Shown one piece after another: positions 10,386-13,820 of a stretch of 64,000 nt of DNA (the first letter of the stretch is position 1; each line of letters starts with the position of its first letter). This DNA comes from Candidatus Kapaibacterium sp. (GTDB taxonomy: Bacteria > Bacteroidota > Ignavibacteria > Kapaibacteriales > HRBIN21). The stretch is from positions 279,180-343,179 of the forward strand of contig JANXCT010000002.1 in assembly GCA_025059875.1 (NCBI GenBank), in the 5' to 3' direction. The notes under the pieces are model-generated. The model saw only the letters and a list, made by a program, of their open reading frames with translations, was not told the DNA's origin and made no database searches. A program made the position numbers and the translations under genes.

Positions 10386-10952
10386 TCAGTCCGGCAGGAT
10401 GTGGACAGGGAAGGTCACATCCACGTCCGTCTCCCCGCTTGGCTGCGCCGTCTTTTGCCCTTCGTAGTGGAAGAGCCGAATCCGTAGGCTACCTCGGGCT
10501 TCGTGATGGCTGTGCAGCCGCACCCGAGCTTCCAATCCCAGCGGTAGCCCATTGGCATCCCTGTCTAACCGCTCAACCGTGAACAAGTCCTGCGGCTGGA
10601 CGTCGTAGAAAACCTGATGCGCCGTAGCCTCACGGCGAATCTCCTCCGTGATCGTATCCGGCGGGCTGACCGCCTCGTTGAGGAACTCCAGCCGCAAGCG
10701 CCACAGGGTGTCGTGCCCCCGGAAGTGGATGGTATCCACCTGCGGCGAATTCCCACCAGGGCCATCTACATCGCGGAAGGCGAACGTGTGGACGTTGGTT
10801 GAATCCGGCTCATTCCATACATGCACCAGCACCGTCGTGATGAGCTCCTGGGGATGGTCTTCATGAGGGTGTGCTGGGTCCTTCTCGCATCCGACCAGCA
10901 GGAGCACGGCAAAGGTTAGGACGAGACCACGCAGATACATCCGGCAACGCAT
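10386..10952 (-). CDS. TonB-receptor-associated lipoprotein ('type 1 periplasmic binding fold' type)
   Basis: This is a predicted lipoprotein of about 188 residues. A hydrophobic segment ends in the lipobox LVGC, so the mature protein is anchored by that Cys. A short His/Asp/Glu-rich linker (HPHEDHPQE) follows, and could touch metal. The rest (ITTVLVHVWN, FRDVDGPGGN, LEFLNEAVSPPDTITEEI, HQVFYDV, DANGLPLGL) matches a family common in Bacteroidetes next to TonB receptors, often labelled 'type 1 periplasmic binding fold'. ATGs at 10952 and 10940 are both possible; the ATG at 10994 would overlap the receptor gene. It lies downstream of the receptor in the same operon. Surface-ligand capture for that receptor is inference. 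Confidence 0.75.
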   Translation of the reverse strand: MRCRMYLRGLVLTFAVLLLVGCEKDPAHPHEDHPQELITTVLVHVWNEPDSTNVHTFAFRDVDGPGGNSPQVDTIHFRGHDTLWRLRLEFLNEAVSPPDTITEEIRREATAHQVFYDVQPQDLFTVERLDRDANGLPLGLEARVRLHSHHEARGSLRIRLFHYEGQKTAQPSGETDVDVTFPVHILPD

Positions 10953-10981
10953 TGGACTACACCCGAGCTTGTGGAACATGG

Positions 10982-13255
10982 CTACCATTCCCACCGCAAC
11001 CGCGCAATGAGATCACGTCCCGGCTCATCGGCAAAGTACCGAAGCCGGCTGTTGTAGTCGCGGTAAGCCCGATTGAAGAGGTTCCGCACCTCCACAGCAA
11101 TCCCGATGGAACCGTAGCCGAGCGGGAGCTCTGCCCCAAGGGCAGCATCCCATACAGTGTACCCGGCCGGCGGCGGAGCATAATCCAGAGGTGCCTGTGA
11201 CCTCTTGCCGACTGCCGTCATGGTAAGCTCTACATAGGGGAGCTGGAAGGGCCCAAAAGAGGGCAGGTGAGCATGCATCCGCAGCCGAAGTCGCGGCGGC
11301 GGGATGCCGTAAAGTGGCTGACGTTGACCGAGCTCACGCCCCCAGAGCATGGTAGCAGTGAGTTCCGCTCGGAGCCATTCAAGGAGCTCGCCCTCACTGC
11401 GGAGCTCCATCCCTGTAAGGAGAGCGGGTACCCCTTGGTACCGAAACACAGGGAATGCTCCCCGAATAGTCAGCACCGGCTGTCCCGTGGGTAGATGGGC
11501 AAGGAAGCGGGGGAAGTAGTGGGCAAAGGCGCTGGCCTCCAGGTGCCATGGCGCCGTGTGGTAGCTTGCCGAGAGCTCTGCTGTCCATACTCGCTCTGCG
11601 GCGAGGGTGGAGTCGCCCACTTCGAAGATGGCAGCACCGTGGTGGACACCGTTGGCGAAGAGCTCCACTGCTGTTGGTGCGCGCCAGCCAGAAGCGACGC
11701 TAGCTCGAAGCTCCCACGGCCGCTCCACGTACCCCACCAGGGCAGCCACAGCAGCGCTCACCCAACGCCTCTGACTGCGCGTCCATACCCCCGCTACTGA
11801 GCGCCAGACAGCCAACCCCAGCCAATCCCCTCGGAGTCCAACCGAGGCTTGCCACCGTTGCCAGAACCACTGCTGCCACAGTCCGCTCCCGAAGGCGTAG
11901 CTGCGGAAGTTCGGCACGAAGCGCTCCAACCCCTCGGAGACACTCCCCTGACGACGGGCGTCAGCAACGGCATGGAAGCGCCCGCCGAAGATGGGCTGTT
12001 CTACCTCTGCCCGAAGGCTCCAGCTCGTCAACGTCACATCGTACGCAGCCCGCCCACCGAGCACTGCCCGGAGGGAATCGCTCCAGAATCGGTGTGCGTC
12101 GTACTCTCGACGTCGATTCTGCTGCCAGCCTAAGATGAGGCTTGCTTGCCCCTCACCCAAGGCTCTCTGCAACTCCAACTCCGAGACGACGTGCCAGACA
12201 TCCTGATACGGCGGCCGAATCTCATAGCCTACGGGACGCTGGACCAGCGGACGTGGCGACCGAAGGGCACGTTCCAGATCGGTCAGATTGCCTAAGTGCA
12301 TCCCAGCAAAGACCCCCAGCCGCCCGCGGTAGAGCTGAAGCCGGCCCCGCAGCATCGTGTGACCGAAGAGGGACTGCAGGAGTGCCGTCCCCATGTACTG
12401 CTCGTAGGCCGTGTTGGCTAGCCCATACTGCGGAGTCATCACGTCTGCGGCCCGTCGAGCGCTCAGCAGCACCTGCCCTGCCCACGGGCCCTGTACTGCG
12501 TCCACACGCGCTGAGACTGCACCTTGGCGGTTGGCGGAGAAGCCCTCTAACCGTACCTGCCCGTGGATTCCAGGACGCGAACCCGGCAGCGCTGGTACCA
12601 ATCGCACTACTCCCGCCAACGCTTCTGTCCCATACCGCACAGCTGCTGTACCCCGCACGACTTCCACGGACTCCACCATCAGCGGATCCAGCTCTGGAGC
12701 ATGTTCCATCCCCCATGCCTGGCTGTAGAGTGGGAGCTTGTCATTGAGCACTAACAAGCGCTCCCCGGTCAGTCCCCGAAGGCTGGGCTTGGCAATCCCG
12801 GGCCCTGTCGTAATCACACCCATACCCGGAAGCTCTCGAAGTACCTCCCCCAGACTCTGGCCACGGTGGCGGTCTAGCTCGCGTGGCGTCAGCACCAGCA
12901 GCGGACTGGCACCCGCCTCCGGCAGCTCAGGACGTTGGGCCTCAACGGCAACACCCAGCAAAGGAACGACCCTCTGCGCCAGAACAACAGTCAGAACGGT
13001 ATCTCGATGCAGCGTGAATGGTATCTCCGCAGGCACGAAGCCCACCGCGTGGACACGGAGCCAGTACCTTCCCGCAGGCAGATTCGACACAACAGCTCGC
13101 CCTTGGGCATCCGCCACCGCAGCGTGGTGTAGGGGCTCTACGACCATCCTTGCCCCAGGTACGGGCACACCAGCACTGTCGCGGACGAGGACTTCAACGC
13201 GCTGGAGGGAGAGCGCGATGGCACTGCATGCCAGCCATAGAATCGGGATTCGCAT
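10982..13255 (-). CDS. TonB-dependent outer-membrane receptor with carboxypeptidase-like N-terminal domain
   Basis: This 757-residue protein is an outer-membrane TonB-dependent receptor. A signal peptide (MRIPILWLACSAIALS) is followed by a carboxypeptidase-regulatory-like Ig domain (about residues 18-95; GVPVPGARM, GRAVVSNLPAGRYWLRV). A plug domain comes next, with SLGEVLRELPGMGV, GIAKPSLRGLTGERLLVLND, QAWGMEHAPELDP and VRGTAAVRYGTEALAGVV. The rest is a beta-barrel ending in RDLIARLRWEW, a proper aromatic C-terminus. The plug resembles Bacteroidetes receptors annotated as ZnuD- or heme-type. It is flanked by a CxxC/RAPP membrane protein and a His-rich lipoprotein, which suggests a metal or metal cofactor as ligand; the ligand is not known. 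The ATG at 13255 is preferred over a GTG at 13282. Confidence 0.88.
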   Translation of the reverse strand: MRIPILWLACSAIALSLQRVEVLVRDSAGVPVPGARMVVEPLHHAAVADAQGRAVVSNLPAGRYWLRVHAVGFVPAEIPFTLHRDTVLTVVLAQRVVPLLGVAVEAQRPELPEAGASPLLVLTPRELDRHRGQSLGEVLRELPGMGVITTGPGIAKPSLRGLTGERLLVLNDKLPLYSQAWGMEHAPELDPLMVESVEVVRGTAAVRYGTEALAGVVRLVPALPGSRPGIHGQVRLEGFSANRQGAVSARVDAVQGPWAGQVLLSARRAADVMTPQYGLANTAYEQYMGTALLQSLFGHTMLRGRLQLYRGRLGVFAGMHLGNLTDLERALRSPRPLVQRPVGYEIRPPYQDVWHVVSELELQRALGEGQASLILGWQQNRRREYDAHRFWSDSLRAVLGGRAAYDVTLTSWSLRAEVEQPIFGGRFHAVADARRQGSVSEGLERFVPNFRSYAFGSGLWQQWFWQRWQASVGLRGDWLGLAVWRSVAGVWTRSQRRWVSAAVAALVGYVERPWELRASVASGWRAPTAVELFANGVHHGAAIFEVGDSTLAAERVWTAELSASYHTAPWHLEASAFAHYFPRFLAHLPTGQPVLTIRGAFPVFRYQGVPALLTGMELRSEGELLEWLRAELTATMLWGRELGQRQPLYGIPPPRLRLRMHAHLPSFGPFQLPYVELTMTAVGKRSQAPLDYAPPPAGYTVWDAALGAELPLGYGSIGIAVEVRNLFNRAYRDYNSRLRYFADEPGRDLIARLRWEW

Positions 13256-13296
13256 AGCTCTGCAACTAGACAGGCTCTGCACGACCGAATACGCTG

Positions 13297-13326
13297 TTGG
13301 CCACTGCTCACTTCAGTAGCGGCCAA
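13297..13326 (-). promoter_or_regulatory. stem-loop in the TonB receptor leader
   Basis: TTGGCC (13297-13302) pairs perfectly with GGCCAA (13321-13326). The inner bases extend the stem to 12 positions, with one wobble and one mismatch on the minus strand, around a 6-nt loop. It lies 42 bases upstream of the receptor ATG. No T-run follows on the receptor side. No known riboswitch consensus (cobalamin, TPP) could be completed around it. Confidence 0.4.
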
Positions 13327-13422
13327 GGCCACCCAGCACAATGAGGCAGTGGGGAGAGAGGGCGCAAGCAGTAGAGTTAGGACACGTAGAGGAAAGGCTG
13401 CCTAACGAGCTTGGAGTGCGCT

Positions 13423-13707
13423 TCAGCTCCGTGGTGGTGCTCGGCAGCAGAGGGGTGCGGTAGAGACGCAGTAAGGGGCCTGCCTCTGCTCCCAGACTTG
13501 CTCGACAGCCACTACATCTTGGGGGAATAGCCGCCCGGCCTCCGGCAGATCGGGTAGTACCAGTGGCGGTAGCCAGCAGAGCCAGCAGCTCTGCTGTACC
13601 TCCGGAGACTGCCCGTCCGCTGGAGAGTGGACGTGAGGACCCTGCAGGGCTACAGTCCCCAGCAGACATACCCCCACCGCCACTACTAAGGGTCCCCGAA
13701 ACCGCAT
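13423..13707 (-). CDS. small CxxC / C-terminal RAPP membrane or periplasmic protein
   Basis: This is a 94-residue protein with an N-terminal hydrophobic segment (about residues 6-20), then HVHS, a CWLC motif, and an end with paired Cys and the tail RAPPRS. Small proteins with a histidine-rich stretch, CxxC and a terminal RAPP/RGPP occur upstream of TonB receptors in Bacteroidetes and resemble DUF2946-type proteins. I recognise the pattern, not a named family. The ATG at 13705-13707 begins right at the hydrophobic segment. It is the first gene of the minus-strand unit leading to the receptor, 167 bp upstream of it. A role in metal sensing or binding is inference. A second overlapping frame (13313-13723) looks like a shadow. 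Confidence 0.55.
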   Translation of the reverse strand: MRFRGPLVVAVGVCLLGTVALQGPHVHSPADGQSPEVQQSCWLCWLPPLVLPDLPEAGRLFPQDVVAVEQVWEQRQAPYCVSTAPLCCRAPPRS

Positions 13708-13820
13708 CCATCCGCTTCGACAAGTCGTAGTGTGGGGACGAATCGCACTACTATTCCAGTGCACGGCGTTCCACGGGCAGCTCGTCCATACGCATGCACA
13801 GCTCAGCATCAGCGGTCCCC

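Follow-up and report, generated by a model that had tools for sequence, protein, structure and literature searches.

A predicted metal-sensing leader peptide heading a ZnuD-like receptor and lipoprotein cassette in Candidatus Kapaibacterium and related Bacteroidota

Which substrate is imported by a TonB receptor encoded between a very small protein and an unassigned lipoprotein, and how is its expression controlled? Here we report the analysis of such a cassette in Candidatus Kapaibacterium sp. (assembly GCA_025059875.1, contig JANXCT010000002.1, positions 279,180 to 343,179), within a stretch of 64,000 nucleotides that we refer to as the window. The cassette consists of three minus-strand genes, in the order upstream open reading frame (uORF), TonB receptor and lipoprotein. 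It is probably an operon in which a CruR-like arrest peptide stands first and governs the expression of a ZnuD-like receptor and a new lipoprotein, with the regulatory steps carried over from CruR of Bordetella pertussis. We hold it likely that the cassette serves the uptake of a metal ion, most probably zinc, and is under the control of its own leader peptide. The conservation of the genes and their order, of the uORF motifs and their spacing, of the receptor ligands, and the presence of a C-rich RNA region and of zinc-type neighbours are all read from sequence; arrest, release by metal, termination by Rho and the identity of the metal are inferred by analogy with CruR and ZnuD. The features of the cassette, all on the minus strand, are as follows.

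13423..13707, minus strand: uORF of 94 residues, predicted exported metal-sensing ribosome-arrest peptide of the CruR/DUF2946-like type
13627..13635, minus strand: H-V-H, residues 25-27, the HxH/HH element kept in 42 of 45 relatives
13576..13587, minus strand: CWLC (CxxC), residues 41-44, predicted metal-binding motif
13432..13443, minus strand: RAPP, residues 89-92, predicted arrest motif, 44 residues after CxxC and 2 before the stop
13256..13422, minus strand: intergenic region between uORF and receptor, 167 nucleotides, without unusual RNA hairpin
13340..13470, minus strand: region of C over G excess (C>G bubble), peak C minus G of 28% near 13380, candidate Rho loading region
10982..13255, minus strand: ZnuD-like TonB-dependent receptor with an N-terminal CarboxypepD_reg domain, from domain and profile matches
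12701..12706, minus strand: receptor plug E184-H185, aligned with the ZnuD zinc ligands D99-H100
12092..12106, minus strand: receptor barrel motif E384-x-D386-x-H388, possible counterpart of ZnuD E340
11639..11644, minus strand: receptor H538-H539, with H538 aligned to the ZnuD zinc ligand H499
10386..10952, minus strand: lipoprotein of 188 residues, predicted all-beta, with invariant residues including Cys22 and an acidic/His N-terminal linker

The receptor frame is 757-766 residues long depending on its start (10982 to 13255 or 13282). We adopted the ATG at 13255, which agrees with the relatives and thus sets the gap after the uORF at 167 nucleotides; the lipoprotein starts 29 nucleotides beyond the receptor stop.

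The leader reading frame and its conserved ruler

The uORF encodes a hydrophobic signal-like helix followed by H-x-H, CxxC and a C-terminal RAPP, and the HVH, CWLC and RAPP motifs noticed in the preliminary description of this DNA are present on the same strand as the two larger frames. That description also stated that small His/CxxC proteins ending in RAPP or RGPP recur upstream of such receptors, and 45 non-redundant relatives bear this out. All 45 keep a spacing of 41-45 residues between CxxC and RxPP (43 in 23 of them, 44 in the window), and outside this ruler they barely align. An HxH or HH precedes CxxC in 42 of them and may take part in the sensor site. When 800-nucleotide tiles were searched for CxxC, 25-70 residues, RxPP or RxPG, up to 14 further residues and a stop, the pattern was found in 29 sense tiles upstream of homologous receptors, 0 antisense tiles and 5 of 1,882 control tiles, and the spacing was 41-45 in every upstream match; the motif is far from chance. 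A codon test within the genus gave a ratio of nonsynonymous to synonymous polymorphism of 0.50-0.84 with nearly saturated synonymous sites, a result that is not decisive and is consistent with weak purifying selection.

The small protein had been regarded as uncharacterised, and we find it to be a relative of the CruR/DUF2946 arrest-peptide uORFs (PMC9426467, PMC12992588). Equivalent uORFs in three sister cassettes (L054, L055, L057) pass the cut-off of Pfam DUF2946 (PF11162), and a profile of the 45 uORFs matches Proteobacterial DUF2946 proteins with E values of 2e-7 to 2e-5 in a search of a 6-sequence set; on these grounds we call the uORF CruR-like by architecture and linked homology. A weak DUF2946-like match elsewhere in the same genome (L083) has no CxxC-RxPP frame.

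The cassette as a whole is also conserved. The lipoprotein is present in 36 of the 61 genomes of the order; 34 of these loci were inspected, most having the receptor adjacent, with an upstream short frame whose product combines a hydrophobic helix with H-x-H, CxxC and a RAPP, RGPP or RSPP tail. With the receptor profile, 80 loci were recovered genome-wide, including representatives of Kapabacteria, Cytophagales, Chitinophagaceae, Saprospiraceae, Ignavibacteria, Rhodothermia, Calditrichia and Latescibacterota. Of these loci, picked by the receptor alone, 74 have enough contig, and in 66 of them the lipoprotein lies behind or next to the receptor, as the earlier claim that this lipoprotein type recurs beside TonB receptors had anticipated; a uORF was recognised in about 33 of the 80. 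In the window the uORF is the first gene of the operon and is separated from the receptor by a long gap; the relatives have the same order, many with shorter gaps. One Latescibacterota locus (L132) has receptor and lipoprotein swapped, and the uORF nonetheless stands first. Absence of uORF homologues and of co-occurrence had been named beforehand as what would speak against a joint function; both homologues and co-occurrence were found, and the conserved neighbourhood upholds the proposal that the three genes belong together in metal uptake.

Predicted control of the receptor gene

CruR is a DUF2946 uORF in which CxxC senses copper and the arrest motif RAPP is needed for expression; its 45-residue spacing between CxxC and RAPP tolerates small changes only, and relief of the arrest leads to Rho termination in a 162-nucleotide gap before the gene of a TonB receptor (PMC9426467). 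Arrest at RAPP of CruR was demonstrated in vitro in a study that also reported RAPP/RGPP uORFs ahead of TonB receptors throughout the Gram-negative bacteria (PMC12992588). The cassette resembles the CruR-BfrG(CrtA)-BP2921 system in having the uORF first, the TonB receptor second and RAPP near the C-terminus, with a ruler of 44 against 45 residues, a gap of 167 against 162 nucleotides and a C>G bubble in both. By this analogy the peptide most likely exerts its effect before leaving the ribosome, through arrest at RAPP and release triggered by metal. The 94-residue uORF would be translated first, and RAPP would stall the ribosome once CxxC, 44 residues earlier, has just cleared the exit tunnel. 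As long as metal is absent, the stalled ribosome would cover the C-rich RNA, so that Rho could not load and the receptor and lipoprotein would be expressed. Metal bound by the emerging HxH/CxxC site would relieve the arrest and let the ribosome depart; Rho would then terminate transcription in the 167-nucleotide gap, and uptake would be turned off when metal is plentiful.

The small protein had been offered as a sensor or a metal carrier, and only the first of these roles stands. A periplasmic carrier working as a finished protein would account for the signal-like helix and the metal ligands, yet a free carrier has no obvious use for a C-terminal RxPP or for a spacing fixed in 45 divergent relatives, and the gene of CruR has no action in trans (PMC9426467). 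Given an arrest motif at the C-terminus and a constant spacing, we consider this role extremely unlikely. The C-terminal RAPP/RGPP, N-terminal export signal and upstream position are shared with ApdA/ApdP and the TonB-related uORF class (PMC10951233, PMC12992588); ApdA/ApdP differ in that they respond to Sec/YidC activity, whereas a metal would be sensed here.

Alternatively, Rho might play no part, and the arrest peptide might work by way of an RNA hairpin masking the start of the receptor, the arrangement of CutF-CutO or SecM. CutF-like proteins are common among Bacteroidota, often in front of TonB-type genes (PMC9973294), and the uORF-receptor gap is 35-60 nucleotides in many relatives. In CutF-CutO-CutG of Rhodobacter capsulatus, as predicted here, an exported small protein with a metal motif and a C-terminal Pro motif controls a downstream gene (PMC9973294); CutF differs by its CxxxC, its mRNA stem-loop and expression that is turned on by copper. 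Against such a hairpin in the window, the RNA of the gap folds no better than shuffled sequences (z = 0.10), without a CutF-type stem-loop over the downstream ribosome-binding site, and the gap is long and carries the C>G bubble. On the sense strand C minus G reaches its peak of 28% with its centre 43 nucleotides past the uORF stop, and in 19 of 30 loci a bubble near the uORF stop is stronger than almost every receptor segment of the same length. The CruR model with Rho is favoured over the CutF model in the window because of this bubble, the Rho gene of the host genome and the unexceptional folding of the gap, and the hairpin alternative appears rather unlikely; in relatives with gaps of 35-60 nucleotides, a hairpin or simple coupling may operate instead of Rho. 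No Rfam families were found in 11 loci lacking a uORF. The window also has a 136-residue frame (13313-13723, minus strand) that overlaps the uORF and the gap in the frame of the receptor and stops about 60 nucleotides before the receptor start; it is probably due to chance and, if used, could carry ribosomes over the C-rich gap.

Receptor, lipoprotein and the likely cargo

The carboxypeptidase-like domain described for the TonB receptor is confirmed, the CarboxypepD_reg, Plug and TonB barrel domains all being above the Pfam cut-offs. A profile of 30 receptors compared with solved structures matches ZnuD best (138 bits, 2e-39), followed by the heme receptor PhuR (85 bits, 3e-23) and OprC (74-76 bits, 2e-20). 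The zinc ligands of ZnuD are D99, H100, E340 and H499 (PMC4557270). Counted along the printed profile alignment, H100 corresponds to H185 and H499 to H538 of the window receptor, both invariant in 30 of 30 homologues, and D99 to E184, which is always E or D, so that three of the four ligands are kept in kind. The region of E340 lies outside the profile match; E384 and D386 of the barrel, both invariant, are candidate counterparts, and H388 is found in 28 of the 30. The conserved ligand columns contain no Cys or Met, the sole Cys of the window receptor being residue 10 in the signal peptide, and the CxxxM-HxM copper site of OprC is absent. The receptor shares with ZnuD (PDB 4RDR) the plug D/E-H and barrel H ligands and differs from it by the N-terminal CarboxypepD domain, the partner lipoprotein and an HHG motif; its low score against the ZnuD family NF038289 of NCBIfam (49.8 bits, cut-off 950) argues that it is no ZnuD orthologue. 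We suggest that it takes up metal through a ZnuD-like His/acid site.

Import of heme or a metallophore, with the two invariant histidines as heme ligands, was also considered. Taken singly, the receptor scores highest in NCBIfam with a heme/hemoglobin family (81.6 bits), far under the cut-off of 316.85; with the full profile ZnuD is ahead of PhuR by about 50 bits, and ZnuD itself was once misread as a heme receptor (PMC4557270). Furthermore, invariant acids adjoin the histidines, and the sensor peptide has CxxC/HxH. We regard heme as a very unlikely substrate; of the two cargoes first proposed, a metal or a metal cofactor, we favour the metal, as an ion that is most likely zinc, over a cofactor like heme.

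The lipobox Cys of the lipoprotein is residue 22, and EKDPAHPHEDHPQE follows it. The reported richness in His, Asp and Glu of its mature N-terminus holds in the window, and a His/Asp-rich linker behind the lipid Cys is frequent but not universal among the homologues; 33 of these share the lipid Cys22, H112, D130, D132, H162, K167 and D176. The label 'type 1 periplasmic binding fold', an alpha/beta fold, was rejected on the basis of an AlphaFold2 model that is essentially all-beta (pLDDT, predicted local distance difference test, 87). A fold search against the PDB with this model gave no match at E <= 0.001, with only weak immunoglobulin-like matches above that value; the best E value of the lipoprotein profile against PDB sequences was 0.014, and no Pfam or NCBIfam family could be assigned. 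The lipoprotein is probably a new family partnering the ZnuD-like receptor, and its co-occurrence and composition suggest that it may gather metal at the outer membrane or pass it on to the receptor.

Zinc is the best-supported cargo, and we consider it quite probable on the grounds of the ZnuD-like receptor, the conservation of its ligands, the zinc-type neighbours and a Met-poor linker in the uORF. Fur-family genes adjoin 15 of the 80 cassettes, and the closest solved relative of the two tested is the zinc regulator FurB. A uORF and an adjacent Fur-family gene occur together in 1 of these 15 loci (Fisher p 0.007, with Dyadobacter loci that are not independent). In one family of cassettes (f7), genes that match ZigA best, below the model cut-off, lie 3' of the lipoprotein in five genomes, with the whole cassette in three; a subset of the ZigA-type GTPase family is tied to zinc homeostasis in the source cited (PMC2770081). 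MerC genes adjoin four cassettes. The cassette uORFs have a mean of 0.7 Met in the 40 residues preceding CxxC, as compared with 4-13 Met in the enterobacterial plasmid DUF2946 uORFs that precede copper receptors and PepSY-type genes; the His count is equal in both. The genome encodes one ZnuA-type ATP-binding cassette system, and the only Fur-family protein found has, judged by eye, the appearance of Fur rather than Zur. Its gene (G000:C2:462266-462619) lies about 0.9 kb from another, divergent TonB receptor gene (463506-464843).

The same leader-peptide mechanism might serve copper, perhaps as chelated Cu(II), for heme-copper oxidases, as in cruR-bfrG. The nearest characterised uORF is the copper-sensing CruR (PMC9426467), and CxxC binds Cu(I). 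Against copper, the receptor is closest to ZnuD and not to OprC, the neighbours are zinc-type, the recurrent neighbours, judged by eye, include no PepSY, Sco or PCuAC-type cluster, and the uORF linker is Met-poor. HxH, the Met-poor linker, a ZnuD-like receptor with a CarboxypepD domain, a lipoprotein in place of the PepSY protein, zinc-type neighbours and the occurrence in Bacteroidota all set the cassette apart from CruR-BfrG. We therefore treat copper as unlikely.

Several observations nevertheless count against a zinc cassette under uORF control. In over half of the related cassettes no uORF could be recognised; the window uORF has no match in NCBIfam or in Pfam, DUF2946 included, and its link to that family passes through sister sequences only. 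The C>G value is reached by 13% of equal-length segments of the window receptor, and the bubbles of the four nearest relatives are weaker. The zinc-type neighbours amount to few independent events, because the ZigA-like genes come from one family and most Zur-like genes from Dyadobacter. A Zur-like operator, suggested for the upstream region, was not found: searched with a single consensus (ATGTTATNNNATAACAT), no site upstream of the cassettes was clearly above shuffles. Three COX1-type genes in the genome mean that the locus could serve copper, and the copper receptors of the CrtA/BfrG type likewise lack conserved Cys/Met ligands and rely on His (PMC12914433). One of the three COX1-like genes (G000:C11:11183-12487) carries a TAG in frame, which may mark a pseudogene or an error in the sequence.

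Variants of the cassette and their meaning

An RNA methyltransferase-type gene of the same strand lies on the 3' side of the cassette and a divergent cinA-type gene on its 5' side, both named from the sequence alone. The host genome is 1.97 Mb in size, and its same-genus relatives include 'Bacterium HR21' and one Candidatus Kapabacteria metagenome-assembled genome. Some cassettes have additional genes between receptor and lipoprotein, namely an exported protein of 163-173 residues with no Pfam match (L048, 2317-2835, minus strand; L051, 5758-6246, plus strand), or a DUF5916/CBM9-domain protein with a His-containing N-terminus in family f7 (L053, 3682-5964, plus strand), similar proteins occurring in L063 and L082. 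The class of His-rich CxxC..RGPP uORFs also heads other operons of the order. In L079 (1805-2203, plus strand) the uORF is followed by a 185-residue HTHEHEE lipoprotein and a TonB receptor; in L077 and L078 it precedes a lipoprotein of about 300 residues such as CSEDHTHAPGEHFEAEG, with a relative in L080. Different lipoprotein families thus share one regulator type in these loci.

In Dyadobacter and relatives (L101, L106, L111-L114, L116, L130, L141, L146, L156, L160), cassettes lacking the uORF adjoin a Zur-like Fur-family gene on the opposite strand; no Rfam element was found in those tested, nor a Zur box with the consensus used. When RAPP-less uORFs were sought in front of the cassettes of Dyadobacter, Emticicia and Larkinella, none appeared, and only the tail variants KGPP and RGPP were seen, in L092 and L118. 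The inferred cargo and repression logic are those of Zur-regulated zinc uptake; the difference is that a nascent peptide would exert the control, the uORF rarely coinciding with an adjacent Zur-like gene. That a zinc-sensing arrest peptide with a Cys2His2-like site controls the ZnuD-like receptor and the new lipoprotein, and so replaces Zur in part of the Bacteroidota, is a tentative proposal to which we give slightly less than an even chance.

The uORF class is already known from CruR/DUF2946 and the CutF-like networks, and zinc sensing would be its new part: in the literature cited, metal-controlled arrest peptides have been tested for copper only. The CxxC-RxPP ruler is an easy genomic signature for finding further members, and the analysis offers a testable function for a receptor-lipoprotein pair found throughout Bacteroidota. 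If the class reads zinc, nascent-chain sensing would be a general means of controlling metal uptake, and the different ligand sets carried on one conserved ruler of 41-45 residues would offer a natural experiment in the encoding of metal specificity.

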